Positions 25,565 through 53,651 of a stretch of 64,000 nt of DNA are shown piece after piece (position 1 is the first letter of the stretch; each line of letters starts with the position of its first letter). A program made the position numbers and the translations under genes. Source of the stretch: Lunularia cruciata (taxonomy: Eukaryota; Streptophyta; Marchantiopsida; Lunulariales; Lunulariaceae); the NCBI GenBank assembly GCA_948567375.1, contig OX419757.1, positions 10,120,974 through 10,184,973 on the forward strand, read 5' to 3'. Below the pieces are notes generated by a model, which ran no database searches, was not told where the DNA came from, and saw nothing but the letters and a program-made list of their open reading frames with translations.

Positions 25565-26640
25565 GCATTGCTCCAAGTTCCAACATACTCCAATTGGGAT
25601 GAACCTAGAATGTGCATCCTTTGATCAATTTCCTAAAAATAAGGATAGATGTAAACCTCTCCTTGAGCTCTATAAAAGCTTTCTCTTACTTGTTTCACCA
25701 ACACCACTTTATGTAAGATTGGTCAACTTTATCAAGGCCCTCGAAATTGCCCTAAATCCTCTAAAATATTGGTGATAGAAGTCTATTAACCCAAGGAATG
25801 ATTGCACTCTCCTCACAATTGTAGGCTAAGAAATATGTTCAATAACCTCCACTTTGGTATGTTGAACACCAAGTCCACCAAGGTAGATAGTGTGATCCAA
25901 ATACTCAATCTTCTCTTTGAAGAGGTTTAATTTCACAAGGTACTTCCCAAGGTATAATTTGAGTCCATGAGATCTCAATCTCTCAAACATCACCAACAAA
26001 TGTCTCTCATACTCCTCCATAAAAGAACTATAGACCAGAATGTCATGGATATAACACAAAAAAAAATCCAATCCAACTAGGACCCTATCCATGATTCGTG
26101 GGAATTTGGCATGAGCACTCTTTAACCCAAATAGTAAGAATTACCATTGATATAATATATCCTTATCATGAGGATTAATAACCCATAATGTTATCTTGGA
26201 CTTCTCTCCTCCTCCTTGACTGGCAATTGATGATATCTTGCTCAAAGATCCAAAGTGCTAAAGACCTTTGCATGCCTAATCACATCAAAGATCTCCTTTA
26301 TGTGGGTATAGCATACCAATCAACCTTACTCTATTGGTTGATATTTTGGTAACATCCATATATCTCCCTGTGCGTGTAGTTTCCATGCATATCTTTTTTG
26401 GCTGACATCCCTATAGCTAAAGCATATTGTTTATGTAAAATATCCACTGAACTAGCCTCAAGAAGATCTCTAATCTAGCTTTGCATAAAGGCTCTCTCCA
26501 TGTCACTATATTTGTAAGGATGTCAAAAAATTGTGTATCACTAGTCAACTCAATCCAAATACTATATCTTTTTAGAGCATACAAATCTAAAGCAAAACAA
26601 CTAGGGTAGCTCACTAAGACTCTAACTCTCCTTCTTTCTT
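25565..26640 (-). pseudogene. Reverse transcriptase relic, family C copy 1
   Basis: The open frame 25826-26092 contains MDRVLVGLDFFLCYIHDILVYSS: the catalytic F-x-D-D box appears as YIHD, so one Asp is lost. It is followed by EEYERHLLVMFERLRSHGL and IEYLDHTIYLGG, typical of Ty3/gypsy RT. Copy 2 has the same region at 48560-48985. Upstream (26100-26640) the frame is fragmentary. It is interrupted downstream by A-old at 25564/25565 and continues as RNase H at 6997. Confidence 0.75.
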
Positions 26641-28440
26641 CTCTTGTAAGCTTAGCTCCAATGTTTGGCTTCCAAGAATCCTTTATAACTACTATAGAGG
26701 TGAAGGATGCACTAATTTTTGCTACACCAAGACCTTTGGAGCAGTACTATCATGCAGTCCATCCCTTGAGTCCCTAACCTTAAAGTGAGAAACTCTCTTG
26801 CTTTAGTTGCAAGCTCCATACATCTTCTAGGTGCATCCCAAGTAGACCTTGCTCACTTGGATGTACCCCAAGTAGACTACTTTCACTAGTTTTGTACCAA
26901 GAATACCATGCTTACTTGGCCTATCACCCCTATAATATGGCTCATTCATTTCAATATGCATGGAGCTCAAAAGTGTCCAAGTGATGATGCATGTAAAGTG
27001 CATCCTTTACTACTTAGCCAATTCAAGGCTCACAATCCAAGTCAACCCTTTCAAGTCCATGGCTTGAACTAACATCTAATGCATAGATGCCTATGATAAT
27101 ACTAAATGAAAATAATAACAATGGGGAGACCAATTGCTTGCTCTCTTTCATTGGTTTTGGACTCCACTAACTACTATAATTGTGAGTCTTAAACAAGTTC
27201 AAGACCTTGTTCTTATAAGCATGGGAGATTAGGAAACTTGTCAATGTGGGTAAAGTGACTCTAAGCTGCCCAACAAGGTTCACCACTACCATAGAAAACC
27301 TATCAACCACTCTTACCATTTGAGATTGGTACCTAATATCCAAGTTGCCATCAACAATCAGGTGTGATGGTTGTTGAATACTATCATAGGCGCACTATAG
27401 AATCTCTTAAGGTACAAGGTTTGTCCACCAAAGACAACAACAATGAGCCCATGATCCAACTTTGGCTACATTTAACAACACAATATGTCCAATCCAAGAC
27501 CAAACCTAATATATAATTTCCACCATTTTTGTGTAAGAATCACCCATCACTATTTCTCCAAATTTTGTATTGGAAAAACTGCTTGATGAACCTAGAGATA
27601 CTGTAATATACATAATATCTCCCAAAACATGCTAGAGTGGGTATCTTTTAGACCTTGACCTTGGCTAACACAAGTATGTCCTTGACATGGCCATCCAAAA
27701 GTCATTAAATGAATAGTACTACATCTTGTGCCCCTCCCTTTTGGCGCAAGGAAATGTTAAATGGTAAGACCTTTTAGTAACCCTTAAATTTTGATATTGA
27801 TAATAACTCAAGATACCAATATGCGCAGTGTGCCACATGATGTAGAGTATAAAAGGAAAATGAGAGAAATAGGAGAATGGAAGACTAGAGTGTAAGACCA
27901 CATTGGGACTCTCAAGTGAAGGAAACTCCAAATGCTTAGCATGAGCTTGGGCTTTGGTAATTATAATGAAGCAATACAAGACTCTTGAGAAGCTTCCAAG
28001 TAAACTTCTTCTAGAAGCCACATACTTAGAATAAAAGCTAAGCTAGTCATTAACTAGATGTGCAAGTTACCCAATCCTTGGAAGGTACCTAGAAGCTTCT
28101 CACTAAGAAGATTCCTAGGTGCTTCTAGAACATGCAACCTCAAAGTTTCCTAGATGCTTCTGAAACATTCTTAGAATTCTTATCTTTTTGCTTATTTTAC
28201 TAACTCATTAGTCTCAACATTCTTAGAATTCCTAACCATTTTTTTTGCTTATTTTACTAACTCATTAGTCTTTGCTAACTTTTCTATTAACTCCATACTA
28301 ATACATAGAGAGACTCATCTAGTAATCTCATACCTCTACACATACAAGTACCTTTGAACATGTATGTCTACCTACAAGAATATAGCTTTTCCAATGCTAA
28401 TCACATCAAAAACATCCAATAGTCATACTCCCTCCACTAG
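26641..28440 (-). pseudogene. C5-cytosine DNA methyltransferase-like domain of family C copy 1
   Basis: On the minus strand, motif I lies at 28391-28435 (LLDVFDVISIG, the F-x-G-x-G SAM site, degraded). Next is a YLYV-R-EITR-VSL stretch. Motif IV is intact as FGWPCQGHT, with catalytic PCQ codons at 27682-27690, followed by GQGLKDTHSSMFWEIL. A later target-recognition-type block has NVAKVGSWAH (27443-27472) and LWWTNLVP. Order and spacing fit a C5 MTase, which methylates cytosine in DNA. It sits between protease and RT of a retrotransposon. An E-type solo LTR (27841-28305) splits it, and stops and frameshifts show it is dead. Copy 2 supports each block. Confidence 0.7.
27841..28305 (-). mobile_element. 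E-type solo LTR (old)
   Basis: About 465 bp aligning with the E LTR end to end: aataggagaatgga near the left, gcttagcatgagcttgggc, several GAAGC/CTTCT palindrome remnants, and ttaactccatac near the right end. It begins tgtagagtat and ends aataca. I could not confirm a target duplication. It interrupts the C copy 1 methyltransferase domain, whose two halves join in alignment with copy 2. Confidence 0.7.
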
Positions 28441-29623
28441 AGACTGCCAAGCCATAAGTGTGGTGTCCAAAGGTGATAAATCTAAAGGATGAATGGGCCA
28501 TAACAATAGTGAGCCAAGATTGTCATTGCTAAATTGCACCATTAAACAACATACACATTCCTCACCTAATTATCAACTTGGCATACAAGATGTTATCTCC
28601 TCCTTATAGTCATGAAACCCATGGATTATAGCACTACTCCTCTTACTAACACATCATTTGACTTTGCTATTGCTACAATTGCTTAAGCTCTCACCATAAA
28701 ACAATCAATCAGATGATCAGGGTGAATGTGGACAATGACTTCCTCACATGTGATGTATGTGAGGAACTACTTCCTAACAATTTTTGAATCTAAAATAAAC
28801 ATCTCTCTAACATTGGTCTTCAATAGCCCAAGACCAAGAGTTGTAGCCTTCCCTAATAGTCAAGACCATGCGTCAAAGTCTGATCATGCACTCTATGGTG
28901 TATAGACTTTCCTTGAGGTCCAAAAAAATTGAAAATCCTACTCAACTTGTCCAATATGACAACTCCAAGTATAAACCTAGCTTGCTCAAATGTAGATCTA
29001 GTAGGCAACTCCTCCGACCTAGCAATTATTGCCTACCACAACCATTAGTAGTAGAATGGATCCCATGCTCCTCAACCAATTTGGATTCTACCATCAACCA
29101 CCTTCATACAAGAAGTAGGAACCACACCATCCCTACCCAATGTGGAAACTAACCAAAACATTGGAGTTGGATCAACTATTAGTGTCAACATGTTGGTGGT
29201 TGAAAACAAAAAGCACATAATTATTATGAGCTACCCTAGCATAATGATAGACTTGATATAAGTAGATGATAAACTAATATATGGTCCATTTTCCACTTCA
29301 TCTCCACATACCATGCTTGCACTAGGATATCTCAAAGCCATAGATGTTGAAGTGACTTTCATGCCTCAAAAAGTGTGAAAGATGGATGAAGTCTAACTTG
29401 TCTACCAACCTCTCTTCTCTAAGAGTCCAATTTCATTGATACTCCTCTAGGCTCAAGAGCAAGTACTACACTCCTAGTAACTATGATGGATGTATCAATA
29501 TATGTTGATTTTCACATGAAATCAAGGACATCTCTATCACCAACATAAGAGGTGGAAGCATCAATATCTAAATCTAATCTTCTTTGAGTAACAGCCATGC
29601 TGGCCCATCTCTATTCCAAGTAT
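28441..29623 (-). pseudogene. Family C copy 1, gag-to-protease region (decayed)
   Basis: By position between the CCHC gag relic (30639) and MTase motif I (28435), this should hold the rest of gag and the protease. I see no convincing active site on the minus strand. Open frames are short. An A-type solo LTR forms its right border. Confidence 0.4.
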
Positions 29624-30373
29624 TGTAATACCAAGAACTAGCCATGTGATCTAAATGTGAAATTTGGTTTGCTAACATCTGGAATGATGTTATACATGAT
29701 GGTCAAAATAGATCAGATAGAAGTATCACAAAAAGAGTACTTCTACTAATAGGGCAAAAATAGAAATAGACTTGAAAACCTTAGAACCAATAGCTAGACA
29801 TATGATTTAAAGGTGAGAATTGGTTTGGTTACATCTGATTGGTTACATCATACATTGGTTTGGTCCATCATGTGTAATAAATAGATCAGAACAAGGTATC
29901 ACCAAAAGAGGACTTCTACTAATAGAGTATGAATTGAAATATACCTGAAATATTTGAAGGCAATTTTGGAGGCCTAAACAGATGAATTAGGCCTCAAAAA
30001 TGTGGGGTCCTTTCCCCCAACAAAGAAAAGGTTGGCCTTCCCTCCCCCTGGTTTGTCTTGTCAAGAGCTTTCCAATGGTACCTCACACACGTGCTTTTGA
30101 AATTCCTACAAGAAGATTCCCTAAAAGATTCCCTCTGGTCAAAGCTTGTTTGACCAGATAGGACTAGGACCGACATGTCATCCATCCAAGTAAGTAATCC
30201 AAGGGTGGAACTTGGTCACATGTCACCTGTATGTGTGCCTAATCCTATGGTGCAGCTTCCTTGGAGGAGATCCTCTTTGTCTATATAATAAAGAGAAGTT
30301 GCTCCTTTGGGGCATCAGAGGATTGAGTGTGAAATTTGTGTTTTCTCTCTTCTCTTGTCCTCGGAGTATTACA
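29624..30373 (+). mobile_element. A-type solo LTR
   Basis: 750 bp from TGTAATACC to TATTACA with the doubled U3 module and TATATAATAAAG. The duplication is agtat (29619-29623) and agtac (30374-30378), one transition apart. Around 29830-29878 the second U3 module contains a rearranged patch with the short segment 29864-29877 inverted relative to all other copies. Confidence 0.9.
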
Positions 30374-31700
30374 AGTACTCAGTCCGAGTAAACATGGTTG
30401 TATGAGAAAGAGAATGTATGGTGCTCCTACCAAGTGGGGGTCCTCCTCTTCCACATCTACTTCCTTGTTGTCCTTGACATGTGGCTCTTCTACCTCCTAT
30501 TGTTGTAGCCCTACCACTCTCTAACTCCATGTGTAAGTCAAATCATTGGTTACTATTATGACCAAATTGGTGATAATTGTCATACTACCTTTGGGTTGGT
30601 TGAGGTTCTCTTGAGGTATTATGCCCTCTACCTTGGGTGCACTCTCTCTTGTGGTGAAGTCCACCACAAGTTCAACAAGGAACACCGCCACTCATTATTG
30701 TTGTTGACCAAAAAATAAGTGTAAGGGTCTATGTGCACAAGGTCATCCATCCACTCCATACCATAAATCTCCAACAAGTGCACCTCCATTAGATACACCA
30801 GTGTTTCTTGAGCTAGAACTTGTGAGTATTTTCAGTCTATCTTTGGAAACCAAGCTTGAAGTGATGTAGATGTAATTTTGAGACCAATATTATCTCTATA
30901 GCTCAATCTCCTTCAACAATACTTTCTTGAACTCATATTAGCCATCCATAGACAAACCTCTAAATTTTAGGACAACCGCTTCTATGCCATGAATGGTGTG
31001 AAAAAAAGTCTAGTTTTGTATCCATTGTAGATGACACCAACTATCAAATCTTCCAACTTTATGGTATCCATTATACCAAGTAGTATTTGCAGCCTTTGGA
31101 GACCCCATAAATCTCCTCCGTCTCATAACAACAATGTGGACACATAATATGCAGTCTCAACTAGATAGCTCTTGTGTCAAACTCCAAATTGGAGTCAATC
31201 TCCTCCTTCATTAGAAACTAAGATAATACCACTCTACATAAACCCACTACATATTATAGCAAATCTCCTCTAAAATCCCCAAAGTACTTTTTTGTGACAA
31301 TATATCTCAAACTACAACCGTATAACCAAGTGCCACAACCAAGAACCACCACCAAGTGCCACCAACAACTTAACACCATTCACTAATGCTACCTAAGTAC
31401 CTCTAAATGTGACAACAATACTATGGGGAAGTGCAACTTGTAGCTTATTGTCACAAACACACATTATCATGGTCTATAGGTCATCACTTTATGCTTCATC
31501 AAAGAGAAACATAATAGTTTGACTATTCAACACTCTAACCTCACTATTGAGAGTACCCTTTTGCACCAATGCTCCAAATATCAAGACAAAAATATGGTAC
31601 ACAAACAAGAAGTAAAGAATAGAGGAGATCCAATCACAAGAATTCCAAATGATAACCTTCCATTTTACAAATCCAATCAAATTGACTCTGCCATTTGGCA
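30374..31700 (-). pseudogene. gag relic with zinc knuckle, family C copy 1
   Basis: On the minus strand a knuckle reads C-stop-TCGGLHHKREC at 30639-30677 (TGG to TGA inside it), equal to CWTCGGPHHKREC of copy 2. It is followed by a degraded second knuckle ending FDLH and a Gly/Arg-rich tail (GGRRATCQGQQGSRCGRGG). Spacing is C-x2-C-x3-H-x4-C. Upstream capsid homology toward 31700 is only suggestive. Confidence 0.65.
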
Positions 31701-31838
31701 TTTGAGATAATATGAACATTTTTCTACTCCTACATTATCATGATCACTAAGGATGGGTTCAATTGTCTTCTCCTTGCCAAAGCTATATAGATATAGATTT
31801 AGATATAGATATGAGTCCACCAATCTCTAAGACAACAA

Positions 31839-31905
31839 GTGATGGTAGACTAGTTGGCTAGGCCATGAGTCTATAAACCAAATATTGAAGGTTCAAACCT
31901 ATTTC
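31839..31905 (+). other. tRNA-derived sequence (SINE-like, degenerate)
   Basis: An A-box-like TAGACTAGTTGG at 31846-31857 and a B-box-like GGTTCAAACC at 31890-31899 are 44 nt apart, as in a tRNA. The acceptor and anticodon stems do not pair properly, so it is not a functional tRNA. A SINE head or old tRNA pseudogene is likely. Confidence 0.4.
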
Positions 31906-31929
31906 ATAGTACTCAAGAGTGAGTTAATT

Positions 31930-32029
31930 TTGCCAAAAGACTATCAAAATATCCTCTTAACTTGCTAGCCATATTGAGAGGTATGCTAATTTGCCAAAAG
32001 ACTACCAAAATATCCTTTAAACTTGCTAG
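31930..32029 (+). repeat. 61-bp period duplication
   Basis: ttgccaaaagacta and the following 25 bases occur at 31930-31968 and 31991-32029 with few differences. Confidence 0.8.
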
Positions 32030-33060
32030 TCTTACCACTTTGGCTTGCTAGCCCTTCTAGGCCTTTGTAGACTCTCAAGCCCATAGCCTTGTGCCTTGGG
32101 AACTTTTTTTTCACTTCAATACCTCTAGAACCAACTCAAGCCCATATAGCCTTTGTAGCCTCTAGCCCATAACCCTAAACCTCACAACCCCAAGCTTCAA
32201 AAGCCAATTGAGGCTTTCTTAGCAATTATGCTAAGCTTGGAGATACCACCAATGCACACTATCTTGTACCCAATTTCTCCCATCACATCTTCTATGTTAT
32301 AAGTCAATCAAAACTCAGATCACATCTCATAAAGTGAGCCAAAGCTCACTTTTTGGAGAAGGGTTTTGAGCATTCAACACTCAACTATCAATAGGCCATG
32401 ATCACATCATCAAGCCATGTCTACTTTATCTAACAGAATATAGGTAATACTTTTTGGTCTTTGTCCTCCATAGCTAAGAGCTCAAAGACTCAACATAAAA
32501 TAAGTGAGCTCTCTAGAGCTATATTTTGAGGTATATTTTGTCTAAAGCAATCAAGAATCCAGCCTTATTGGCACATTTCATGGCCCCTCTGACCATGCAA
32601 ATGGCACCTCAATGGTATGATCAATTGACCTAATACTATATCTAGCCATCACTAAGTGGTGGCCAATTCTTGGTAGTGGCACTTCGTGGTTATAGTTGCC
32701 ATTGGGAGTACATTACAAGCACAAAGTTCTTAAGGGATTTGAGAGTGGACTTTGCTGCAATATGTTATGGGATCACACAAAGTGGCACTTGATAGCATTT
32801 GGTATCTTAGGTCCTAGTGAAAGAGGAGATTGGTTCCAGTTTGAAGTTTGACACAAGAGTTGTTCCAATTGAGAATGCACATTGTGTGTCCACAACATTT
32901 TTGTGGGACATGGAAAAGATTGTGATTGGATTGGAAAAGATTGGTGGTTCCAAATGTCTCATGCGCTATTCTGATATAGTGGTTATCATTTAATTGGATG
33001 ACTTTATCTAAGAGTTTGATAATTGGTGTGTGATCTATATCACATGTAGAACCCAACTTT

Positions 33061-34372
33061 TTTCATACCCTTCATGGCATAGAAGAGGTTTTTCTAGCAC
33101 TTGGAATATCTACTTATAGATGACTAATCCATGTCCAAGAGGCCATACTTGGAGTAGATTGAGCAAACAAGACATAATTTGCCTTCAAACTACATGTCCA
33201 TCAATTTAGGTTTAGTTTTCAAAGGTAGATTGGTAGTACCCACAAGTTCTAGCACTAGTAGCATTGGTGTATCCAATCAAGGTGCACTAGTTGGGGATGG
33301 TGCTACTACAAGTGGAGGTACCATTGCAAGAGGTAGTGTAATATTGGGGCTTAACTCCATGGTAGAATGGTGGAAATCTTCCAATTTTTGAGGAAAAATT
33401 ACCAAAGAGTATAGACTAACAACCTGATGAGCTTGCAAGAGTTCCAATGGAAGGTTGGAGAGAGCATATTTGAGACATACACTTGCATGAGACAACTAAT
33501 CAATTTCACTCACAGAGTCATTGAAGCACAAGTTGTCCAATTTTGATATGGGATATTGGATAGAGTTGTGATGTAGAGTATGTAATGCTACATTATTGAA
33601 TACCTCACCACCTTTGGTTGTGGTCTTTGGTTTAGTAGAGCATATTAAGCTCAACATGGTGGAGGAGAGAGTGGTGATATCTAGATTTAGTAGAGAGATC
33701 TTATCCATAATAATTCCTTATTCTAGATTGCATCATATTATATTGGCTTTTGAGGGCAAAGTGGATAGCTCCAATCTTATGGAGTGAGGCAAAGCCATAG
33801 TGCAAATAGACCTTTACTCTCATTTGTTGGTCAGAAAAAAATGATGAGTGGTGGTGTTACTTGTTGGACTTGTGGTGGACCTCATCATAAGAGAGAGTGC
33901 ATTCAAGGTAGTGTGCATGATACCTCACGAGCATCTAAACCAACCTAAAGATAGTGTGACCATTGCCATAGATCTCATCATACTAGTGACTAATGTTTTG
34001 ACTTACACCCAAAGTTATATTTTGGTTGAGCTACTATGGTAAGAAGTAGAGGAGACACAAGTCATAGAGGACAAGGTCATAGAGAATCTGCACCTAGTAT
34101 GAGCACAATATTCATCTTTAATTTTGATACAACCATGGTTACTTGAATTGAGCAATTGGAGCAAAGATTGGCTAGCATGGTTATAGCTCAAAGAAGATCA
34201 TATACAAGTTTTGAGTCAACCACCTCTTATGTTAGTGATAGAGATGTCCTTGACTTCATGAATTGATAAGCACAAGTAGATACATCCATTGTAGTTATAA
34301 GGAATGTATTACATCCTCTTGAGCCTAGAAGAGCATCAATGGAGTTGGAACCCATAGTGAGGAGAGGCTTAT
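33061..34372 (+). pseudogene. gag with two zinc knuckles, family C copy 2
   Basis: Knuckle 1 CWTCGGPHHKREC is intact at 33862-33900 (C-x2-C-x3-H-x4-C). Knuckle 2 CDHCHRSHHTSD-stop-C lies at 33955-33996, followed by FDLHPK. These are nucleocapsid motifs. Upstream capsid sequence is fragmentary, with open pieces at 33596-33787 and others. A2 interrupts downstream at 34372/34373 and homology continues at 39594. Confidence 0.7.
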
Positions 34373-35116
34373 TGTAATACTCCGAGGACAAGAGAAGAGA
34401 GAAAACACAGATTGCACACTCAAACATTCGATGCCCCAAGGGAGCACCTTCTCTTTATTATATAGACAAAGAGGATCTCCTCCAAGGAAGCTCCACCATA
34501 GGATTAGGAACCCTACAGATAGGTGACATGTCAGCAAGCTCCACCCTTGGATTACTTACTTGGATGGGTGACCTGTCTGGTCTAGGTCCTATCTGGTTGG
34601 TCAAACAAGCTTTGACCAAAGGGAATCTTTTAGGGAATCTTCCTGTAGGAATCTCAGAATCACATGAGTAAGGTACCGTTGGAAAGCTCTCGACGAGACA
34701 AAGCAGGAGGGAGGTAAGGCCAGCCCTTCCTCCGTTGGGGGGGGGGAATCTACACATTTTTGAGGCCTAATTCATCCGTTTAGGCCTCCAAAATTGCCTT
34801 CAAAGATTTCAGGCATATTTTGGTTCCTACTCTATTAGTAGAAGTCCCCTTTTGGTGATACCTCTTTCTGATCTGTTTAGTCCATCATGTGTAACATCCT
34901 TCTAGATGTTACCAAACCAATTCTCACCTTTAAATCATATGTCTAGCTATTGGTTCTAAGGTTCTCAAGTCTATTTTGGTTTCTGCCCTATTAGTAGAAG
35001 TACTCTTTTGGTGATACTTCTATCTGATCTATTTTGACCATCATGTATAACATCATTCTAGATGTTACCAAACCAAATTTCACATCTAGATCATATGGCT
35101 AACCCTTGGTATTATA
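34373..35116 (-). repeat. 3' LTR of A2
   Basis: Reads TATAATACC (TG to TA) to TATTACA on the minus strand, with doubled U3 and a TATATAATAAAG block. A polypurine tract (complement of gaccttcctcctttt) lies just outside at 35117-35131. Confidence 0.9.
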
Positions 35117-36649
35117 GACCTTCCTCCTTTTAAGACGCAACGTCCTAGTTGTGCAATTGTTGCTCAAATGCTTGCACCAACACCGGTGCATGTGCCAAAT
35201 TGGCAGCGGGTTCCCAGGTTGCTTCATAGAGGGGGTAACCTTTCCATTGTACTAGATATTCCACCCACGGATGGCGAGTACCACGCATGCGCTTTTGGAG
35301 AATCCGCTCCACTTCATATTCCTCTGTGCCATCAATGACTGTTGGACAAGGTCAAATGTTCTGTGTGGAAGGACCTTGGCCTGATCGGGGAGCGTATCTG
35401 CATAATAGGGAGACATGGAACACTGGATGGATCTTCATGTGTGGTGGTAGCTCAAGGTGATAGGCACAGCGCCGATGCGATGAAGAATCGAGAAAGGCCC
35501 AATAAAACGAGGTCTGAGCTTACAAGATCCAACTAATGTGAGGTTGGTTGTCGATAGCCACATTTGATCCCCAACATTGAACTCCATGTGCCTACGGTGT
35601 GCATCAGCATACTACTTTTGTCGATTTTGTGCAATCTGTAACCTATGCTTGGCACTCTCCACACCTTGTTGGATTCTAGAAACAAATGTGTTGACTGCAT
35701 CAACCCTGGTAGTCACTGGATGGATCTTCATCAAGCTAGAAGGTGTGAAGGGATGCTCACCATACAGGAGGAAGAACGGAGTGACCCGGGTGGAGGCATT
35801 CACTGAATTGTTGTAAGCGAATTCCACCAACGGTAGTAAGGTGTCCCACCTCTCTTGCTCTTCCAAGGTGAAGCCACGTAACATGTCTTCGATCGTGTGA
35901 TTGGCCCGCTCTATTTGGCCATTTGTTTGTGGGTGGTAAGCTGTAGACATGGCCAACTTGGTTTTGAAGAAACCAAAGAGTGTTCGCCAAAACAAACTGG
36001 TGAATTGGGTGCCTCTATTGGTGATGAGTACTCAAGACAAACCATGGTGAGCAAAGATTGCATCTAAGTATAGTTAAGCTAGTTGTGGAGTGGTCACCTC
36101 CTTGGTGGTAGGGCGTACATGAATCATTTTGCTGAGCCGGTCCACAAAGACCACAATGGAGTCAAACCCTGAGGTGGTCTTGGGTAATTCACAAACGAGA
36201 TCCATACTCACTTGTTCCCAACGTTGGGTAGGAGTGGGGAGAGGTTGAAGGAGCCCTGCAGGAGCTTGATTAGAAGCTTTGTTCTGTTGACAAAGTAGGC
36301 AGCTACGCACATAGTCCATCACGTCGTTGCTCATCTTGGGCCAATAGTAATGGTGCTTGACTGCCTCCAAGGTCTTGTCCACTCCGACATGAGCTGCAAT
36401 GGCCGAATCATGACATTCCGCTAGAATGGTGGTGCATAATTCTAGGACATTTGGGATCCACAATCGGCCCTCCCGAAAGGTGAGTCCTTGGGTGCTGGTG
36501 ACACCTTTGGACGATTGCGCTTCTACAATTTGTGGATCAGTTTTTGTAGCAGCTAGAATCTCTTGCCAGAATTCAGGGTTAATCTTAACCTCTGCCACCA
36601 AGTTGTTGGCCATTGGCATGCGGGTGAATGCATCTGCAAGTTGCTTCTA
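35117..36649 (-). pseudogene. Integrase with chromodomain, A2
   Basis: Tether PMANNLVAEVKINPEFW, HHCC region (CHDSAIAAHVGV to SCLLCQQNK), DDE core with SMDLVCELP, then ITNRGTQF at about 36003-36026, where the second catalytic Asp is Asn (codon 36017-36019), and Glu in QIERANH. The chromodomain at about 35190-35330 keeps both Trp codons (LVQWKGYPLYEATWEP) that are stops in A1. In-frame stops occur in QLA-stop-LYL and LS-stop-VLI, and one lies near the C-terminus. Inactive integrase, but the chromodomain itself is complete. Confidence 0.88.
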
Positions 36650-37155
36650 TGACAGACAATTGTCGTCCCTACGACATATAGAGGCAGTTTCTACCTGTGT
36701 GATTTTTCTTTAACCCCAATGATTGACCATTGGTGGGTTCTCACTACTTTCTTCCTCCAATCCACCATTGGATTGTACTGCTCCATCCATGGCATGCCTA
36801 AAATTGCATCATAACGGGCTAACTGTATCACTCGCCACTCAATTGCTTCCTGATATTCTCCTACAAAGAGGGTTACCCATCTAGGTAATGATTCAATCTT
36901 CTCTGTTTGCCCATTTGGTAACTCTACTTCTTCACTTCCATCTCTCTCTAGATCCATTCCCAAGCTTATTGCAACAGAGCAAGATAAGAAATTCTCTGTT
37001 GCTCTCGGATCTATTAATACTCTCACTTGATTACCTTCTAGGATTCCATTCACGACAATCAATTGTGAGTTTGCCTTTTGGGATCTTTGCGTATTATTCT
37101 TCTTCTCCCTTGTTTCTCTGCTTCCTTATTGAGCCAGTAAGGCCGCAAGGTACAT
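36650..37155 (-). pseudogene. Protease of A2, truncated pol
   Basis: Open frame 36691-37062 has VRVLIDPRATENFLS (DPGAT changed to DPRAT), then [19 protein letters not shown]. After the region equivalent to A1 position 16087 the sequence jumps straight to the integrase tether, with two to three filler bases. One base is missing near 37100 relative to A1, which interrupts the frame leading in from the frameshift site. Confidence 0.85.
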
Positions 37156-38244
37156 TTACTGGCGATCTTTGTTTTCCAAAGTGGTTTCCACCTCCTCCTC
37201 TTCAATGTGCCTCTCCATGTTGTTCAAAGATTGCATGTACAAAGGCCGAGGGCCGCTAGGGAAACGAGTGCGACAATTGGTAGATATGTGCCCAATACGG
37301 CCACAATTGTAACAACGGCGTTGTTCTCCTCAAGTCCCTTCTCCTCGTGGGACTCCATCTCTTTGTTCGTCTACCCGTCCCCGCTCCCCTTGAAGCGGTT
37401 GTGCTCCTCGATCCCGGAATCGAAGGTTGCTCAATTCCATCGGTACTGGTCCACCCATGTGTCGCATTTCTGCCCGATAATGTTGAGGTGGAACTACTCC
37501 TTCACCTCCACCTAATGCTCCTACTATTCTTTGCGCACAAGCAATAGCTTCAAATACCGTGCGAGGGTTTTGCACCATGACTTCTTGGCGAATCCGCTCT
37601 TTCAACCCTTGTTTGAAATTGTCAAGAGCCTCTGCTGGACTCATGTCGGTAATTGCGACTTGTAGATCCAGAAATGCCTCCACATACTCTTGTACACTAT
37701 TCTTCTGTCTCAATCCCCATAGTCGGGTTCGAGCCATCTGCATAGAATCCACCGATTGGAAATTCTTAAGTAGTCCTTCTTGCATTGCTGTCCATGTGAC
37801 CTCTCTTCTCTCTGCCAGCATGGATCGTTCCCAAGCATCATACCATGTGAGGGCTTTATCAATCAAGTACCCACATGCAAACACACCTGCAGCATGCTCT
37901 GTGATCTCTCTTGAGAACAATCGAAAATATTGATTCATTCTCGAGATCCAATTTTCCACTACTCCCATCGTATGTTGCCCCTTGTAAGGCTCAATGTTGT
38001 AGGTCTTCTTCATCCGGAGTAGCAATGTGGCTTCATCGTTGATAGGGTTTGTAGGCACGGGTGCCTCTCCAAGTACTTCAGTCGCAGGTACTGGGTTTTG
38101 AGACGGCTCTTCTTCTTGCATGGCCTGATCGTTCCTGAGGATCTGCACTTGACTTTGTAATGCCTCCATGGTCATCTTAATCTCTCAAAATTCATTCAAC
38201 ATGCATTGCATTCCTTGCACCAACTCTTGCAATTGCGGAACCAT
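37156..38244 (-). pseudogene. gag of A2
   Basis: ATG 38244 corresponds to A1 14499, and a TGA shared with A1 precedes the conserved ATG 38175. The frame is open for 281 codons from 38175 through YNIEPYKGQHTMGVVENW, DKALTWYDAWE and NFKQGLKERI to TGA 37330 (A1 has CGA here), then through the CCHC knuckle to TAA 37156-37158. It retains the Arg codon that is a stop in A1. Confidence 0.9.
37171..37177 (-). promoter_or_regulatory. Candidate -1 frameshift site GGAAAAC of A2
   Basis: Same heptamer and same 12-nt distance to the gag TAA as in A1. Confidence 0.5.
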
Positions 38245-38277
38245 GGTTCCTACGACACTCAATTGCTAATGTCTACT

Positions 38278-38707
38278 TCAATACATAGTCAATATGATCA
38301 CTCTAGAAGGCGCACAAACTATCGGAACTACCATAGGGACCTCCATCGCTATCACTTGTTGATAATACTCCTCACCAAAATTCCTAACCACAAAATCTCT
38401 AAACATCACTTTCGGTCTCATTACATGACGGATTTCTACTTGAGTATTGAAAGGGAGAGGATTTGGAACATTCATATCTATTACATCATAATAGAATGTA
38501 GATTGTCAAATCCCACTCTCTGTCGTATATCACCACAGGTAGAATCACCGGGTTTGGTGAGTTCATCACTCTGTCCATGAATTCCGCACCAAAGTGATAA
38601 ACTAGCAATACCCTCATCTGCTCATGCTGGATGTACATAACCTTGATGTGGAATGGGTTTAAGAATAGAAAGCTAGGTGCGGGAAATTGTCCTCCCGGCG
38701 CATCCAT
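38278..38707 (-). pseudogene. ORF0 of A2
   Basis: The first part, 38707-38486, is open from MDAPGGQFPAPSF through EQMRVLLVYHFGAEF and DREWDLTIYI with no internal stop. The second part, 38475-38278, is MNVPNPLPFNTQVEIRHV through NFGEEYYQQVIAMEV. They are separated by the same extra base as in A1. This is the best preserved copy of the small ORF between primer site and gag. Product unknown. Confidence 0.65.
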
Positions 38708-38834
38708 CCCATCCGCTCTCTAAAGTCCTTCCTAAGTCTCGCGATTACTCTATGTTCTCCACTTCACATTATTCAGTTTCAGTAGTTTGTGCTATTCCAA
38801 GAGGGGTGATCCACTCTCTTGGACTAGAACACTT

Positions 38835-38846
38835 GCTCTGATACCA
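38835..38846 (-). promoter_or_regulatory. Primer binding site of A2
   Basis: tggtatcagagc on the minus strand, one base inside the 5' LTR. Confidence 0.95.
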
Positions 38847-38847
38847 T

Positions 38848-39588
38848 TGTAATACTCCAAGGACAAGAGAAGAGAGAAAACACAGATTGCACACTCAAAC
38901 ATTCGATGCCCCAAGGGAGCACCTTCTCTTTATTATATAGACAAAGAGGATCTCCTCCAAGGAAGCTCCACCATAGGATTAAGGACACAGATAGGTGACA
39001 TGTCAGCAAGCTCCACCCTTGGATTACTTACTTGGATGGGTGACCTGTCTGGTCTAGGTCCTATCTGGTTGGTCAAACAAGCTTTGACCAAAGGGAATCT
39101 TTTAGGGAATCTTCCTGTAGGAATCTCAGAATCACGTGAGTAAGGTACCATTGGAAAGCTCTCGACAAGAAAAAGCAGGGGGGAGGGAAGGCCAGCCTCT
39201 CCTCCGTTTGGGGGGGTGAACCTACACATTTTCAAGGCCTAATTCATCCGTTTAGCCCTCCAAAATTGCCTTCAAAGATTTCAGGCATATTTTGGTTCCT
39301 ACTCTATTAGTAGAAGTCCCCTTTTGGTGATACCTCTTTCTGATCTGTTTAGTCCATCATGTGTAACATCCTTCTAGATGTTACCAAACTAATTCTCACC
39401 TTTAAATCATATGTCTAGCTATTGGTTCTAAGGTTCTCAAGTCTATTTCGGTTTCTGCCCTATTAGTAGAAGTACTCTTTTGGTGATACTTCTATCTGAT
39501 CTATTTTGACCATCATGTATAACATCATTCTAGATGTTACCAAACCAAATTTCACATCTAGATCATATGGCTAACCCTTGGTATTACA
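38848..39588 (-). repeat. 5' LTR of A2
   Basis: 741 bp, full TG...CA ends, doubled U3 module, abutting duplication cttat. Confidence 0.95.
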
Positions 39589-40752
39589 CTTATAGATAGG
39601 TGATGGAGTATAGGATGAACTAGATACTAGTCAACCACCTACTTTTACAAAGATTTTTTGTAGCATAATATTGGAAGCAACTCAATTGATTATGCACTCC
39701 CATTTGTTCTCAGCGAATCATACACTTACATTGGAAGTTCACTCAACTCTAGTATTCTAGTTGGCTGTCATCCTTTATGAGAGTAGGTTCATACTTATAG
39801 TGCAAAGGTGGTTGATGGTGGAGTCAATTTGGTTGAGGAGCATGGGTACATTCTACTACTAGAAGTTTATGGCAAGCAATAGTTGCTAGATTGGATGAGT
39901 TACTTACCAAGCTTGCATTTGAATGAGTTGGGTTTTCATCCAAGGTTGTCCTATTGGATAACAAGTGTGAGATTTTCAATTTGGTGGGACTTTCAAGGAA
40001 GGCTTATATACCACAAAGAGTCTTATTAGACTTTGGTGCATAGGTTTATGTTGAGGAATGTTGTAGTCCTTGTACTTGGGCTTTGGAAGTCCAATGTGGA
40101 GAGGTGTCTATTTCAAATCCAAATATCTCTAGGAGGTGGTTCCACTTGGTACATCACATGTGTGGAGATCACTATCCAGCTTTAAATCGGTCATCTAATT
40201 GATAGTTCTATGATGAATGTCCATGCCATTGCAACAATAGCAAAATCATATCATGTGTTAGTTGGTGAATCATTTTTATACTCCATGGGTCTCAATATTG
40301 ACTATTGGGAGGAGATAACTTCATAGAGGTCAAGTTGGAAGTTAGGTGAGGAACTTGTATATTGCCTACTTGTACGCTTTACTATGCCATGGTCCTTGAT
40401 TCACTATAGTCAAGGACCATGGCATAAATGTTAGCATTTAGTGTTCAACTACTTGTTTTGGTGAGTTATTGGAGTAAAAAAACCATGTAGATGATACTTT
40501 AGTACCATGGCATATCACTCGGATTTGTCCTATCCACCTTGGATGTTCCATTGTGGAGTTTTCATGAGGAATTATAGCATAGTGTAGATAGCTTAGTATA
40601 ATAGGCTTGGAGTGGAGCCTTTGTACTATCAATGGACTACTTTGATGATGATCTTCTAGAGTCAATTACCTTATCACCTTTGGAGACCATACCTATTGTT
40701 GGGCAATATCCAATAGAAGGTGTATGCCTATTGGATTTTTTGGTGAGATCAA
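39589..40752 (+). pseudogene. Protease region and MTase motif I, family C copy 2
   Basis: The stretch NLVGLSRKAYIPQRVLLDFGA near 39990-40040 looks like a retroviral-type protease active site (LLDSGA type, here LLDFGA). Downstream, EGVCLLDF at about 40716-40740 followed by G-E-I-N-T in the next frame is motif I of a C5 MTase (L-x-x-F-x-G-I-x-x-G). A one-base loss in the T run explains the frame change. Copy 1 has the same motif at 28391-28435. D2 then interrupts at 40761. Confidence 0.6.
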
Positions 40753-41372
40753 CACTATGGTGCCCATATTTTTTGTTTTTTTTTGTTTATTAGCATTTGA
40801 AGGAAGAAGTAAGCACGGGAAGCCAAATTGCAAAAGAAGTAATAGATGGAAGTGACTTCAGAGGAAATCCAAAGAAGGCAAGATCAGATCCGATGATGGA
40901 GGTACGTAGAAGAGAGATACAACGGAAAAATTCCAAAGAGCATCATCTTTGGGTCAGAAAGTGCCTCATTAGTCCTCACATGTAATGACGGTGATTGTTA
41001 GTCCTTCTCATTCCTCAAGATACTCACTATTTTAGGAACTCAAATCTATCTTCAAGTGACCGGTTTCCTCTTTCTAATCACCAAGTCAAGCGTACGACGT
41101 GTGTGTATGCATGAACTTTGCGTATGCGGAGAAGATAACATTCAAGTCTCTCTCAGGTGTTAAGAGAGGATTGAAGACTTCACTTCTACTGGTGCCGAGC
41201 GTTTGTTGATTAGAACTTATCTTTGGTTTGTCATGATTCATAAGTTACTGAAGTAGGACTACATACCTCTTGATTCAAAATGAAATACTGAGCCATATAG
41301 TATACCCCAAAGGAAAAAGAATAGGGAATACAAAGCACTGAATGTAAAGAAGAAAGAAGAAGGAGCACAAGG

Positions 41373-41408
41373 CCCGGGGATAAATGCTTTTGCCCTTCTT
41401 TCCCCGGG
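41373..41408. repeat. GC-rich hairpin in D2 leader
   Basis: CCCGGGGA at 41373-41380 pairs with TCCCCGGG at 41401-41408. An outer agcacaa and ttgtgtgct extend the arms imperfectly. Not found in the other D copies. Confidence 0.5.
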
Positions 41409-42322
41409 TTGTAGAAATATTGTGTGCTCTTAGAGCATTATTAGGTATCCAATATTGAGCATAGGGTATCCAAGAGCATTTCTCTGGAACCTGAGAAGGT
41501 GATGAACGATCTGACATCTAGATTATTCTTTACCATTATTGTAATGAAAGGAAGGGGTGTAATAGGTATACAAATTGCATAAAACATGGGGGATAAAACT
41601 TTCCAAACTTTCCAACTGTATGCAAAATCTTCACATAGTAGACCGGTCGCATGCTATGTTCTGCTTCACTTTGTAGGGAGTGACTTACATTTTAGTAAAT
41701 GGTTATTTTATTTTTTTAAATACTTGACTTCCATTGGGTCACAGGCAATACAAAGACCATCTAACAACCTTGGTAAGTGGCAAGAAAGTACACTTCAAGA
41801 AACGGTGGAGGTAGAAGTAGCATGTCTTGACAATGACAGGATAGCAACACACAGAAGAGGGGAAGTCAAATTTGAAATTGACTAAAGAATGACTATAATT
41901 CGGGGTAATATAAAATTGTGATTGCGCAGGGACAAGTTGAATATGCCAAGTAAATTTCCAATTTCTTTGAGTAATTGTCCTGCAATAATGCGTGTTGGGA
42001 AGCCAATTGAGAGTGCAATTTTCCAAAATCCAGAAGGGGTTAGAGTGTCTCCTCCAAGAGAAGGCATAGTCTTTCAGTGCCAAAGAACAAGAGAGCAGAT
42101 CATGGCGAAGAAGGTCACAAATGCTCTGGTGGTGCAAAGTTTTGCAATTTGTATGTTAGATGTGGTAGCCAGAATCTAGGTCTTGAATAGATTTCATATT
42201 ATGTTTTTAGCATGGAACTAGAATTTCAGTTTCCCAAGAGTGATGGGAGAGATAGTTGCTAGTAATTGTGAGGAGCGCCCCGAAGTCGAAGGGAAGAGAG
42301 GGAATCCAGCTTGATGGATTGA

Positions 42323-44479
42323 GTCGATTGGAGGTTAGTGTTGGGGAAGGAAGCAGGAGAACCAACGGGGATCACCTTCTATCAAAAGTGTGATGTTGTA
42401 GAAGAGAGGACGGAAATCCAAAATTCTTTCTTTGCTCCGAGAACAACAAATGGTTACAAGGTGGAGTCCTATCGGGACCCGATTAGAAGAAGTATCGTGG
42501 GGGCAATTATAGACATGTTCAAACCAAAATGGACAACTTATGTGAACATGCAGCAAGCAGTCTTCTTCCACCAGATGTTTGTAGGGGTAAAGGTGAATTG
42601 GGCAAAGTGTTTTCACCACTGAACGAGGCAGATGGTGATCAATTGGAGGACAGGTTTGCCTCCACATTATTTTGATCCATTTGCAGCACATTTCTACTTC
42701 GGGTTGAATTTGCTAACAATAGAGGAGAGGCATTGCATGGTGTTGCATTTCCATCCTGATTTAAGATGGGAAGTGGATGAAGAAGAGCAACAATATATGA
42801 CACACCTACGAGCCAATGATGATCACTTCTTGAAGATGGGACAATGGAAGATAGAAGAAGTCACAAGTCTGACGAAGAAGAAGCGCAATACACCCAAAGA
42901 AGCAAAGTCACCTCCAGCTCAAAGAAAGACTCAAAGACTAGTTGTACAAAGTAAGAAGATGATGAGAGAAGCATCATTGGAATCAGAGTCTGAAGAAGAA
43001 ACAGAGTCGCAAGGAGAGGAATCAGAAGAGGATGAACTCACCTTACAAAGTGAGGAGTCTGGAAGTGAGAGTGAGGGGGAACTTGAGGTTCAGCAAGCAG
43101 TTGGAGTCAGTGAAGCTTGTCATGTGATGATTGACAGAGTACCTGGACCAACGAGTCATTGCGTAGCCCTAGTAGTAGACAAGCAAAGACTAGAGAAAAA
43201 GAAGGAATATCCTACGGGGCCGAGTTCAATCGGTAAAGAAGAAGAGAGCTCAGAAGTGGTGTCTCTAAAGATAAGAAGATTGCGACTTTGGCAGAAGGAG
43301 CCGTTGGAGGAGCCGAAGTATGAAGACGAAGACGGTAATGAAGGGAACTTTGGTGGGATACCGTATCTAACAAAGGTTGTCACACCATTGTTGGAACTAT
43401 TGAAGGAGCATCAAAAAGTAATTCCCCAAGATCGTAGAAAGGTGACAAATGAGTTGTAGGTAGTGAAGCATCTATTGAGTGAAGTGAAGGGGTTGCAGGA
43501 GCGAGAAGTCCAAAGAAATGAAGAAATTGAAGAACTTTGGAGAGATGAAGCCTTGAAGAAGAAGACTTTCGAGATGTTACAAGAGAGTTGTGAGTCAAGA
43601 GGGAAAGAATTGCAGAAGCAAGCGGGGGAATTGAGGGAGCAGATGATGTTGCTGAGCAAAATGAAGGAGGAAGTGAATGATGTGCACATTGAGAATATTC
43701 ATTTGAAGGCAATGGCAGCAATAATGGAGTAGGAATTGGACAGCTTGAAGAAGAGTGCAGCCAGGAAGGATCAAGCATGGTAGGGAGACTTAGCAGTCAG
43801 GCATGAAGAAGAAGAAAGATTGCATGAGTTGGTGAGAAGTGCGGAGCTATGAAGTTCACAGTATGTAGAGGAGAAGAAGATGCTCACTGTTGAGTACGAA
43901 GATGAGCTGAAGATGTATCGTGAGGAGCTGAAGGCAAAGCGATCGCGAGGGTATGAGTCGGAATCGGTGGGAGACGTAGTAGGAAAATTGAGAGCTATGT
44001 TGTGCACTAAGCCTAAAGGGAGATTAGAAGAAGCACGTTTTCATGAGCTAAAGTTGCTTGTATAGGAAACTTGGAAGAGGAGAGTTAAAGATGTAAATAT
44101 GAATACTTTGTTGATCTGATTGAGGGAGAGAGTAGATCCAAAGATGTTAGAAGTAGAGGACAATGTTAGTCTCAGATTAGATTTAGTCAATTCAGAGTTA
44201 GGGAAAATTAGGAGTAGTGTGACAAAGGAGAGGAAGTCCAATGTTGCAGACATTGGAGTACAAGGGTCATCGGAATTATTATTAGAGACATTAGAGAGGA
44301 GTGGGTAAGGAGATAAAGAGTTAGATAAATCACTCCTTAGTGCAATTGTAGTTCCTAGTGAAGAAGTAGTAGAAGTAGTGAAGGAATTGGTAGAAATAGA
44401 TATACCCAAAGAAGGAGAAGTGATAGGAAGATCATCGGGTTTGAAAGCCGATGATGAGGTAGACATCGGATCGGGGTAA
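42323..44479 (+). pseudogene. Long coiled-coil protein gene of D2, one continuous frame
   Basis: A single reading frame can be followed for more than 700 codons to TAA 44477-44479, with stops of CGA/CAG/CAA decay type at 42620, 43457, 43730 and several later points. N-terminal block: YKVESYRDPIRRSIVGAI, FKPKWTTYVNMQQAVFFHQ, PHYFDPFAAHFYFGLNLL, RHCMVLHFHPDLRWEVDEE. Then a Ser/Glu-rich acidic linker with an LKIRRLRLWQKEPLEE motif, then a long Glu/Lys/Leu heptad region (43463-44000) typical of a coiled coil, and a short conserved tail SSGLKADDEVDIGSG. Absence of indels over this length suggests past selection. I do not recognise the family. Confidence 0.65.
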
Positions 44480-45280
44480 GTAACAATTTTGAGATAGGAA
44501 GAGGCAAATATGAAGAGACTGATTTTCAGTTTGGATTTGTAGGTAGGAAGAGATGTTAGGAAGCGGTGCATAAGTAGGAAGAACTACCGTTTGCTTTAGT
44601 ATTTAAGGGGAGCATTCGCAGTACTATGTTGTTCAGTATTCATATTTCTGAAGATAGATAAAGCAAAGTGTTGTTTCCAGTGCTCGTTGCTTGAGCTTAA
44701 TTCCGATTGTCAATTTTGTGTTTGTGTTTGTGAGTGTGTGGAGAATTTTGAAGTGCAAGTTAGTGTGCCTATGGATGTTGGATTATATAGCCTTGATCTT
44801 CATTTTGTGTGTTTGATCCTGAGTGAAGTGCATCGGAGCAATGCCTTGACAGATCTAAGAGGAATTGTAGTGTTGGTAGTATTATGCATTTGTGAGTGCA
44901 GCACGAAGTGGATATGAAGCAATTTCAATCAAGGAAGTTGTGCCTTCCGTGGAGGGGTGGAACACAATTCTGAGGTGAAATTGTTCTTTGCAATGAAGTG
45001 CCATCTTTGGGAGAATCTAAATCATCACAATCAAGAGTTATTTGGACAGAGTTTGCTATGTTGTGATTATGTGTGTGTGTATTCGTGACAAGTTGTCAAG
45101 ATTGTGAGCTTGTTACTCTCTTCTGGGTGTAGTTTCTACCTGAGAGATTAAAGAAGAAATCAAGAAGAACTACAAGTTACTATTTGACTTTGTATTTGAC
45201 CAATTCTGAATCGTATCTCTGCGGGAACAAAATTTACTTACCCAATTACCGCAAAAGTGATATTTTTTGGGTTGTCACAA

Positions 45281-46536
45281 ACAATAGACCAGTAGTAGTA
45301 TTGTAAGTAGGCATGCATGTTTAGAGGTACTTCAATGTGGAGAGGGATGAGATAACTAGACAAGTCTCTCTATACCATATTGCATATTTATGTATTGTAC
45401 ATATAGGTATTGCACATATAAGTATTCTAAGTTATTATAGATGTGAATAGTTAGTGGTAACCAAAAGACCCTATCATCAAACAGTTCTTTACTATGAGCA
45501 TAAGATTTAGAGAGGCATGGTACTATTCATTTGGTGATTTTTCGATAGCTATGTTTGGGACATACATATATTGCCAAGGATAGAGATTATAGAATCTCCA
45601 TTTTGGTATATTTTTTGAGATGTTGCATATACTATGACATATTTAGGTTCATCAAGTAATTACTCCAATATAAATTTTGGAGAACAACCCTTTGATGGGT
45701 GACTCTTGTGCACACAAGTGATGGCAATTACACATCATGTTTGGTCTTGGATTGGCTTTGTAGTATGGGATGCAGCTAGAGTTGGATCTTGGGCCCATTT
45801 TCTTCATATTTGGTGGATAAACTTTGCATAGTGAGGTTTACAATGTGCATATGATGAGATTCAATGATTTGCATACCTTATTGTTGATGATCTTTTGGAT
45901 GTTGAGTGCTAGTTTCAAATGGTGGGAGTAGTTGATAGATAACTTATGGTAGTGGTGAACCTTGTAGGGTAGCCTAGAGCCTCTTTTTCCACACTCATGA
46001 GTTTCTTAGCCTCCCATGCTTATTGGGAGGGAGATCTTGGACTTGTTTAGGACTCACATTTAATGGTAGTTGGTGGGCTCAATGCCAAAGGGAGACAATA
46101 GACACTAAATTTTTGTACCAGTATTACTATTATGTCAGTAGTGTTAGAGGCGTCCAAACATCAAGTGTTAGGTCAAACTATATACTTGAACAATTTCATC
46201 TAGATTGTGAGCCTTGGATTGGTTGAGAAATGTAGGATGTGCTTGATATACATCACTACTCAGACACTTGTGTGCTATGCACTTATTGAGACAATTCCAA
46301 CACATGTTGGGGGTGATGGACCAAGTGGACATGGTATTCTTGGTAAATAACTAGTAATTACTAGTAAGGATGGTTTACTTGGGGTACATCCAAGTGAGCA
46401 TGCTCTACTTGGGATATAGGTAGAGAACATGTGGAGCTTGTAGCTAGAGCAAAGGGAGCTTTTGCTTTGAGTTTGGGCACTCTAGAAATTAGGGGCATGA
46501 CACATACTCCGTAGGTCCTATTTTAGCAAGTATTTA
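45281..46536 (+). pseudogene. C5 methyltransferase-like domain, main part, family C copy 2
   Basis: RYFNVERDEITRQVSLYHI (about 45325-45380) is the motif II region. LERHGTIHLVI precedes a degraded motif IV (C retained, P and Q lost: LCLGHT near 45555-45572). Motif VI appears as ILENNPLMGDS (Glu-Asn at 45680-45685). Then WSWIGFVVWDAARVGSWAH and IHIWW-type residues follow (about 45745-45815), matching NVAKVGSWAH of copy 1. Frames change several times. D3 interrupts downstream at 46546. Confidence 0.7.
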
Positions 46537-46545
46537 GTGCATTTT

Positions 46546-48471: not shown

Positions 48472-48480
48472 AGGCAATTC

Positions 48481-49604
48481 CAGGATAGCATTTTGGACTA
48501 TTGATCATCATGGCAAGGATGTATATGATCAATCATAATTCTTACCATTTGAGTAAAGGAATGCTCTTGTCAAGTTCCAAAAGGTTATGGATAGGATCCT
48601 AATGGGACTGAATTTTTCTTGATGTTATATTGATGACGTTTTGGTCTATAGCACTATTATGGAGGAGCATGAGAGATATTTATTGGAGGTGTTTTAGAGA
48701 TTGAGATTTCATGGATTTGGATTACATCTTGGGAAGTGTTGATTTTTCCAAGAGTAGGTTGAGTATTTGGATCACATTATCTACCTTGGTGAACTTGGTG
48801 TTAAGCAAACCAAGGTGGAGACTATTGCATGTATTCCTATACCTAAAGATGTGAGTAGAATGCAGCTATTTCTTGGGTTGGTAAACTTCTATCACCAATA
48901 TATTAGAGGATTCAATGCCATTTCTAAGGCCTTGATAAACCTAACCAAGCTTACACAAGAGTGGTGTTGGGAAGATGAATAATAGAAAGCTTTTATAGAG
49001 CTCAAGGAGAGGTTAGCATCTACTCTTATTCTTAGGATACTTATTAGAGGATACTTATTCCAAGTTCATACTGATTGGAGTATGTTGGAGCTTGGAGTAG
49101 TGTTCACCTAGCAAGATGATGAGGAGAAGGAGTTTGTAGGGTCCTATGCTAGTTTTCCAAAAATTTAGCAAGGAAAAGTATAGCTCATATGAGGGAGAGT
49201 GCTTAACAATATTATGGGCAATAGCATATTTTCTATATTAATTGTGAGAGAAGAACCATGTCCTTTAGCAAGCCAAGAGGTTTATATTGGAGGATGTACA
49301 TTTTTGGGTTGTATGGGAGGATGGTAGAGTGCAAGTAGTACCCCTTCCATCACAAGAGCCCCAATTGGTATAATATTTTCATGAGGAGCTAGGATATTTG
49401 GAGTAAGGCAAACATATAGCTTACTTTAGGAGTCATAATTGGTAGCATGGTATTCATACTAATATATAGCAATTTGTTGCAAGATGTGTGATTTTTAATC
49501 AAGTTAAGATCAATCAATGCTCTTAATTCTATATTTATACTCATTAACTACCATAGGGTTGGATTACCATTGGAGTTTAGACTTTGCTAGACCTTTATCA
49601 TTGA
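48481..49604 (+). pseudogene. RT, RNase H and integrase N-terminus, family C copy 2
   Basis: RT: a YIDDVLVYSTIMEEHERYLLEV-like stretch is readable across frames near 48625-48690, followed by DHIIYLGELGVKQTKVE and VSRMQLFLGLVNFYHQYI in the open frame 48767-48982. RNase H: VFT-x-QDDEEKEFVGSYAS and SSYEGE near 49105-49205, then a deletion. The integrase zinc region follows near 49380-49500 (HIAYFRSHNWWHGIH, QFVARCVIF). The frame stops at 49604, where E is inserted. Confidence 0.75.
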
Positions 49605-50027
49605 TGTAAAAGACCAAAACCGAGGAGAGAAATAGGAGAATGGAAACTCACATTGGGACACTTGAATGAGGGAAAACTCCGAATGCCTAGCATGAGCTTC
49701 GGCCTTGGTATTTATAGGTAGCATACAAGACCCTTGAAGCTTCTCAAGAAGCTTCCTTGAGCCACTTTCTTGGAGTGCAAGCCAAGTTAACTAGGAAGCT
49801 TCTCAAGAAGCTTCCTTCTAGAAGCCACCTACTTGGTGTGCAAGCTAAGCTAGTTAGAAGCTTCTAGAAGCTTCCTTCTAGAAGCTACTTGCTTAGGGTG
49901 CAAGTTAACCAGTTGGGAAGCTTCCTAAGAAGCTTCTTAGATGCTTCTAGAATATTCTAGGTTATTTTGTCTTATTCTCTACTTCGTAAGCCTGATTAAC
50001 TTCGTCACTAAACTCCATATTGTTACA
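49605..50027 (-). repeat. 3' LTR of E
   Basis: 423 bp, TGTAACA to TTTTACA on the minus strand. Carries the same GAAGCTTC array as the 5' LTR. Pol coding runs 66 nt into it. Confidence 0.95.
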
Positions 50028-50606: not shown

Positions 50607-50609
50607 GAA

Positions 50610-52980: not shown

Positions 52981-53011
52981 CGGCTTGATCCACACCGCGA
53001 ATACAGACTTA

Positions 53012-53650: not shown

Positions 53651-53651
53651 C

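Follow-up and report, generated by a model that had tools for sequence, protein, structure and literature searches.

A Ty3-type retroelement of Lunularia cruciata with a DNMT3-like methyltransferase domain ahead of a conserved stop codon

Relics of the element in the window

The window considered here is a stretch of 64,000 nucleotides of Lunularia cruciata DNA (contig OX419757.1, positions 10,120,974 to 10,184,973) that contains a nest of retroelements, as seen by self-comparison with blastn. Among them are two decayed Ty3-type copies in opposite orientation, each with a C5 cytosine methyltransferase domain between protease and reverse transcriptase (RT). This arrangement had been proposed in a sequence-only reading of the window, and the same domain order was found again in tblastn alignments, in related proteins and in other copies from the genome.

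Copy 1 lies on the minus strand at about 31340-25566. Its gag relic (29362-31340, found by tblastn with an intact genomic first open reading frame, ORF1) contains a solo long terminal repeat (LTR) of another family at 29624-30374 (self-blastn) and is followed by a protease-region relic at 28507-29350 (tblastn). A linker and the N-terminal part of the methyltransferase, with motif I and the RYLYVxRYEITR block, occupy 28306-28497 (translation and tblastn), and the domain continues from the PCQ of motif IV to the motif X region at 26854-27848 (self-blastn and tblastn). The two parts are separated by 457 nucleotides, some of which match a repeat at 49625-49789. A TAG at 26722-26724 stands between the methyltransferase and the RT and RNase H relic (25566-26716, tblastn), in which a three-frame Pfam scan of the coding strand recovered the RT family PF00078 at 25892-26194 (E=2e-7).

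Copy 2, on the plus strand at about 32697-56183, is broken up by nested insertions: one element occupies 34371-39588 and a young one 49604-55245, and between these lie a further insertion at about 40750-45297 and a repeat at 47433-48472. The gag relic (32697-34353, tblastn) precedes the first of these and the protease-region relic (39599-40383, self-blastn and tblastn) lies past it. The linker and motif I of the methyltransferase (40460-40760; translation, self-blastn and tblastn) are interrupted by the insertion of about 4.5 kb, and the domain resumes at 45298-46434 (translation and tblastn) with the block RYFNVERDEITR, the ENN of motif VI, VGSWAH, the motif X region and a C-terminal tail. 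A TAG follows at 46524-46526. RT, RNase H and the start of the integrase, preceded by the LTR-like repeat, are found at 48476-49603, and integrase up to a PHD region at 55241-56183, past the young element (self-blastn and tblastn for both).

The segments 26697-27827 of copy 1 and 45411-46552 of copy 2 are 68.7% identical, and further blocks are also common to both copies. In tblastn, an intact genomic ORF matched the linked methyltransferase pieces of copy 2 with E=3e-80 and those of copy 1 with E=7e-62, with colinear gag, protease, RT and RNase H in both copies and integrase also in copy 2. On these alignments, the likeness of the relics to the intact frame is greater than chance.

The six motif positions cited in the sequence-only reading translate as it had said, including PCQ (27682-27690), Glu-Asn (45680-45685) and VGSWAH in both copies. 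The RYxxVERDEITR block that it described takes the form RYLYVxRYEITR in copy 1, and copy 2 has RYFNVERDEITR there, while motif I was located in both relics yet is degenerate in both and lacks the FGG core in copy 2. PCQ and VGSWAH, which had been expected in one frame, fall in different frames in relic copy 1 but in a single frame of 1,428 residues in the genomic copy L012. In the same way, the anticipated match to PF00145 (DNA_methylase) was not significant on the relics alone, whereas five of five related proteins score above the cut-off.

The scans of the relics themselves speak against the identification. No PF00145 match at E<=0.1 was found in three-frame scans of the coding strand of either relic, frame-joined copy 1 reached E=0.021, below the Pfam curated cut-off, and frame-joined copy 2 gave no PF00145 match. 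Neither did joined copy 2 match any entry of PDB, nor did a long-query search with a single relic frame return a match. The Pfam null is not counted as a refutation because of the frame breaks in the relics. On sequence grounds, the methyltransferase identity is settled by the relatives, namely the related proteins, the colinear tblastn alignments and the genomic copies.

Relatives and assignment to DNMT3

Searched with the joined copy 1 domain, the protein collections gave five proteins with E values between 5e-77 and 4e-49, of which one is from Sphagnum troendelagicum. A search for longer proteins, in which scoring covered the best 7,988 candidates by common words, gave 23 matches, including 14 from Marchantia polymorpha and one from Sphagnum fallax. 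Methyltransferase-bearing relatives were found in Marchantia, Sphagnum and metagenomic elements. Six relatives were scanned with Pfam. P0028 displays the order zinc knuckle, protease, DNA_methylase, RT, RNase H and integrase; in P0013 and P0019, DNA_methylase precedes RT and RNase H; P0024 has the knuckle and protease ahead of DNA_methylase; P0006 has DNA_methylase alone; and P0016 matched the integrase family rve and not PF00145. All four relatives with tblastn alignments listed (P0028, P0016, P0013 and P0006) are colinear with the relics. Scans of viral contigs found no relative, and a scan of genome contigs gave a single weak match in Vibrio (residues 170-232, 30%). Klebsormidium nitens did not appear by name among the matches listed in the protein searches.

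The catalytic domain of human DNMT3A is the best sequence match for P0029 (E=1.3e-8) and the best fold match for P0001, to which it is 21-26% identical. The motif order is the same in both enzymes. In P0029 the motifs, in the numbering that we take to apply, run I, IV, VI, VIII and X region, which is the canonical, unrearranged order and not the permuted order of DRM. Unlike the human enzyme, the element domain is embedded in a retroelement polyprotein, and neither an ADD nor a PWWP family was reported for ORF1. By sequence and fold, the known structures nearest to the putative element enzyme are those of DNMT3.

Genomic copies and anatomy of the element

A first look at the 566-Mb assembly of Lunularia cruciata gave 14,025 candidates. 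Each of the 90 that were scored aligns with P0001 at 64-65% identity, beginning at residue 1 and reaching residue 443-446; 20 copies, chosen mainly for long open frames, were fetched with their flanks. A motif-VI 30-mer with at most three mismatches has 3,790 matches in the genome, which are tag matches and not full elements, and its reversed control has 0. The element is 9.5-9.8 kb long in the four genomic copies with both ends located. ORF1 of L012 carries a CCHC knuckle at residue 443, the protease motif LLDSGAQ at 762 and the methyltransferase at about 1000-1320. Gag and protease of ORF1 had no Pfam match and were assigned from motifs and from alignment with P0028.

That the Gag-protease frame closes with the methyltransferase at its C-terminus fits an explanation in which the domain is a structural extension of Gag, kept for nucleic-acid binding or particle shape rather than for methyl transfer. 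Nevertheless, PCQ and ENV are intact in 20/20 fetched copies, and across the 20 rows of the protein alignment ENV never varies and the catalytic Cys hardly does (at least 90%). These observations make such a purely structural role improbable.

The 1,037-residue ORF2 of L028 contains RT, RNase H, H2C2, rve and a C-terminal PHD finger (E=2e-10). The Ty3/gypsy order of RT, RNase H and DDE integrase is present both there and in P0028, and rve was found in two of the three ORF2 stretches scanned (L028, L012 and L014). In these scans no chromodomain family, the mark of chromoviruses, was found after the integrase at E<=0.01, the PHD finger standing there instead, nor any tyrosine recombinase family, the mark of DIRS elements, at the same threshold. 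Among the matches listed (60 of 110), the solved sequences nearest to the PHD finger include CHD4, KMT2D, KDM5, PHF21A, AIRE and UHRF1. Several of these proteins read unmodified H3K4.

The ends of the element consist of a repeat A1 (449 nucleotides) on the 5' side and of B1 (107), A2 (449) and B2 (107) on the 3' side. The B1-A2-B2 block was found in 6/6 copies examined and constitutes split direct repeats of the DIRS-like kind, while target duplications of 4 base pairs (bp), as in LTR retrotransposons, flank four of five copies inspected; in the remaining copy, L025, the 3' end was not located. An ordinary-LTR reading was dropped since no identical complete repeat stands at both ends, where split repeats and 4-bp duplications are found instead. 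The paired A repeats were recovered in 17/20 copies, some being clipped by the fetched stretch, and are 95.4-99.7% identical. L024 carries, near its 3' end, a second copy of a 134-nucleotide segment from the 5' internal region, and that 3' end is displaced by 224 nucleotides.

Selection, decay and traces of methylation

The ratio of nonsynonymous to synonymous polymorphism (pN/pS) was calculated without copies that are 93% or less identical to L012 in a given domain. It was 0.29 for the methyltransferase (20 copies), a value that is biased because these copies were picked for well-kept methyltransferase frames. The other domains gave 0.33 for gag (18 copies), 0.48 for protease (20), 0.38 for RT (18), 0.18 for RNase H (16), 0.56 for integrase (15) and 0.57 for PHD (15). 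Between relic and intact sequence, copies 1 and 2 gave 0.54 and 0.48 for the methyltransferase, 0.47 and 0.62 for RT and 0.66 and 0.61 for gag, values that are diluted because the relics decayed neutrally. Methyltransferase and RT are under similar constraint.

Stops and frame breaks abound in the window copies, as would be expected if a lineage that is now dead had captured the domain by accident and the domain had no lasting role. However, pN/pS is under 1, so that the domain is constrained in this genome, the near identity of the paired A repeats tells against a dead lineage, and the wide distribution of the domain in Marchantia, Sphagnum and metagenomic elements disfavours an accident. This explanation is very improbable.

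C>T and G>A changes make up 518 of the 1,183 singletons; 105 of them fall in CG, 185 in CHG and 228 in CHH contexts, against a background of 10.5% CG, 20.2% CHG and 69.3% CHH. Besides the conserved TAG, 43 of 47 in-frame stops in copies L010-L029 (blocks below 93% identity excluded) are CAG>TAG or CGA>TGA changes. The transitions and the stops suggest that the copies are methylated at CG and CHG, by the host or by the element.

A conserved TAG after the methyltransferase

The methyltransferase-containing frame ends at 5851 (oriented coordinates) and is followed by TAG in 20/20 copies. A pattern with a free stop codon had 122 matches in the whole genome, with TAG in 100/100 of the matches listed, and both relics have TAG-CAA at the same place. 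Since the conserved TAG directly follows the methyltransferase, the domain belongs to the Gag side. In 12/20 copies the same frame reopens right after the TAG for at least 300 codons. The bases that follow in young copies are CAGCCA, which fits the readthrough motif that we take to be called CARYYA. Marchantia proteins P0006, P0007, P0010, P0011 and P0014 stop shortly past the methyltransferase, the last three being labelled partial. The type I readthrough context has been given as UAG CAA UYA (PMC2754532). The position of the TAG suggests that the stop would be read through and that the enzyme would be produced at Gag level.

Several observations weigh against readthrough. The frame does not reopen immediately in 8/20 copies: in 7/20 a frame of at least 300 codons begins later in register, and in L011 the only later frame of that length is out of register. 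The bases after the TAG in the relics, CAAAAA and CAAGTA, do not fit CARYYA, a stop between methyltransferase and RT is absent from P0028, and the 100/100 TAG count is largely common descent because the copies are closely related. Moreover, no RNA structure stronger than in shuffled sequences was found after the stop (z +0.82), and six gene models (P0009, P0013, P0015, P0016, P0017 and P0019) continue across the stop place and join methyltransferase and Pol, perhaps by predicted splicing. These last two observations favour an alternative without readthrough of the TAG, in which splicing or separate initiation supplies the RNA for the RT-RNaseH-integrase-PHD part. Nevertheless, the TAG is in the same place in 20/20 copies, and the stretch of L012 from the stop to the first later Met resembles, by eye, Sphagnum P0016 and Marchantia P0013; because of this resemblance it is probably translated. 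Splicing or separate initiation is rather unlikely.

Proposed explanation and known systems

DNA methylation is a main plant defence against transposons, and hosts use such enzymes to silence jumping genes. An element with a de novo methyltransferase is for this reason a paradox. The relics in the window belong to a Ty3-type retroelement built as a Gag-protease-DNMT3 frame, a TAG and an RT-RNaseH-DDE integrase-PHD part. On balance, this element probably methylates its own complementary DNA (cDNA) or its insertion site. Occasional readthrough of the TAG would yield the Pol part, and the methyltransferase would thereby be made in Gag-like amounts, a dose idea that comes from the stop position in these copies. 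The particle may carry the enzyme, which would there methylate the cDNA of the element itself, or else the insertion site, either ahead of integration or as it occurs, and the PHD finger may help to direct integration to chromatin with a particular histone state. More tentatively, and as the less probable proposal, these would be members of an early-land-plant retroelement family in which DNMT3, lying ahead of a leaky stop, is made in Gag amounts. The enzyme would be packaged and would methylate the element's cDNA inside the particle, and this writer would be paired with a PHD reader borne by the integrase. New copies could then arrive marked as silent chromatin and escape both the harm and the detection of unmethylated insertions.

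The closest published relative found is KnitGypsy-Dnmt3 of Klebsormidium nitens, a Gypsy-type element with an intronless, unrearranged DNMT3 in its polyprotein (PMC5890265; de Mendoza et al. 2018). It likewise has Gypsy-type domains and, according to a figure legend, a DIRS-like repeat arrangement. By contrast, its host is an alga with fewer copies than Symbiodinium, compared with the 3,790 tag matches here, and its methyltransferase was placed in the Pol ORF, whereas the present domain ends the Gag-side frame before the conserved TAG. Here Pol ends in a PHD finger; KnitGypsy-Dnmt3 was compared by description only and may also have a stop and a PHD finger. Expressed in yeast, KnitGypsy-Dnmt3 gave no methylation, which tells against the self-methylation proposal, although the authors draw no conclusion from it (PMC5890265). 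SymbioDIRS-Dnmt3 of Symbiodinium is likewise a retrotransposon with DNMT3 and methylates CG in yeast, but it is of the DIRS class and was acquired independently; self-methylation has already been proposed for DNMT3-bearing retroelements (PMC5890265). Elsewhere, retrotransposon DNMT3s are assigned to Copia and DIRS families (PMC12344493).

The new details are that the methyltransferase ends the Gag-protease frame, that a conserved TAG follows and that Pol ends in PHD. No bryophyte elements of this kind, no conserved stop following the methyltransferase and no PHD finger were described in the titles and abstract openings among the matches listed, a set that leaves subscription journals mostly outside. 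The earlier published case in the plant line, as far as these texts go, is an alga, and here young copies and the tag matches are found in a 566-Mb genome. We know of no methyltransferase in RIRE2 of rice. Stop-codon readthrough has been proposed for this gypsy-type plant element (PMC2754532). A methyltransferase ahead of a conserved stop offers a concrete hypothesis on dose and packaging, and the role of a transposon-borne methyltransferase is directly testable because relatives exist in Marchantia polymorpha, a laboratory plant.

Neighbouring elements

A third relic, on the minus strand at 5102-6996, comprises RNase H, integrase and a PHD region (self-blastn and tblastn), with no adjoining methyltransferase match by tblastn. 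Another LTR family is represented by two near-full members, at 13157-19754 and 34371-39588; their ends are about 740 nucleotides long, with pairs 98.1% and 97.0% identical. The former has RT and integrase matches and the latter an integrase match, and neither has a methyltransferase match. The young element inside copy 2 (49604-55245) has ends of 424 nucleotides that are 99.5% identical, with tblastn matches from protease-like sequence to integrase on the minus strand. Finally, the sequences at about 40750-45300 and 8861-12099 are related. The minus strand of 40750-45300 has no Pfam match and its plus strand only one below the threshold, and this pair is perhaps a non-autonomous element.

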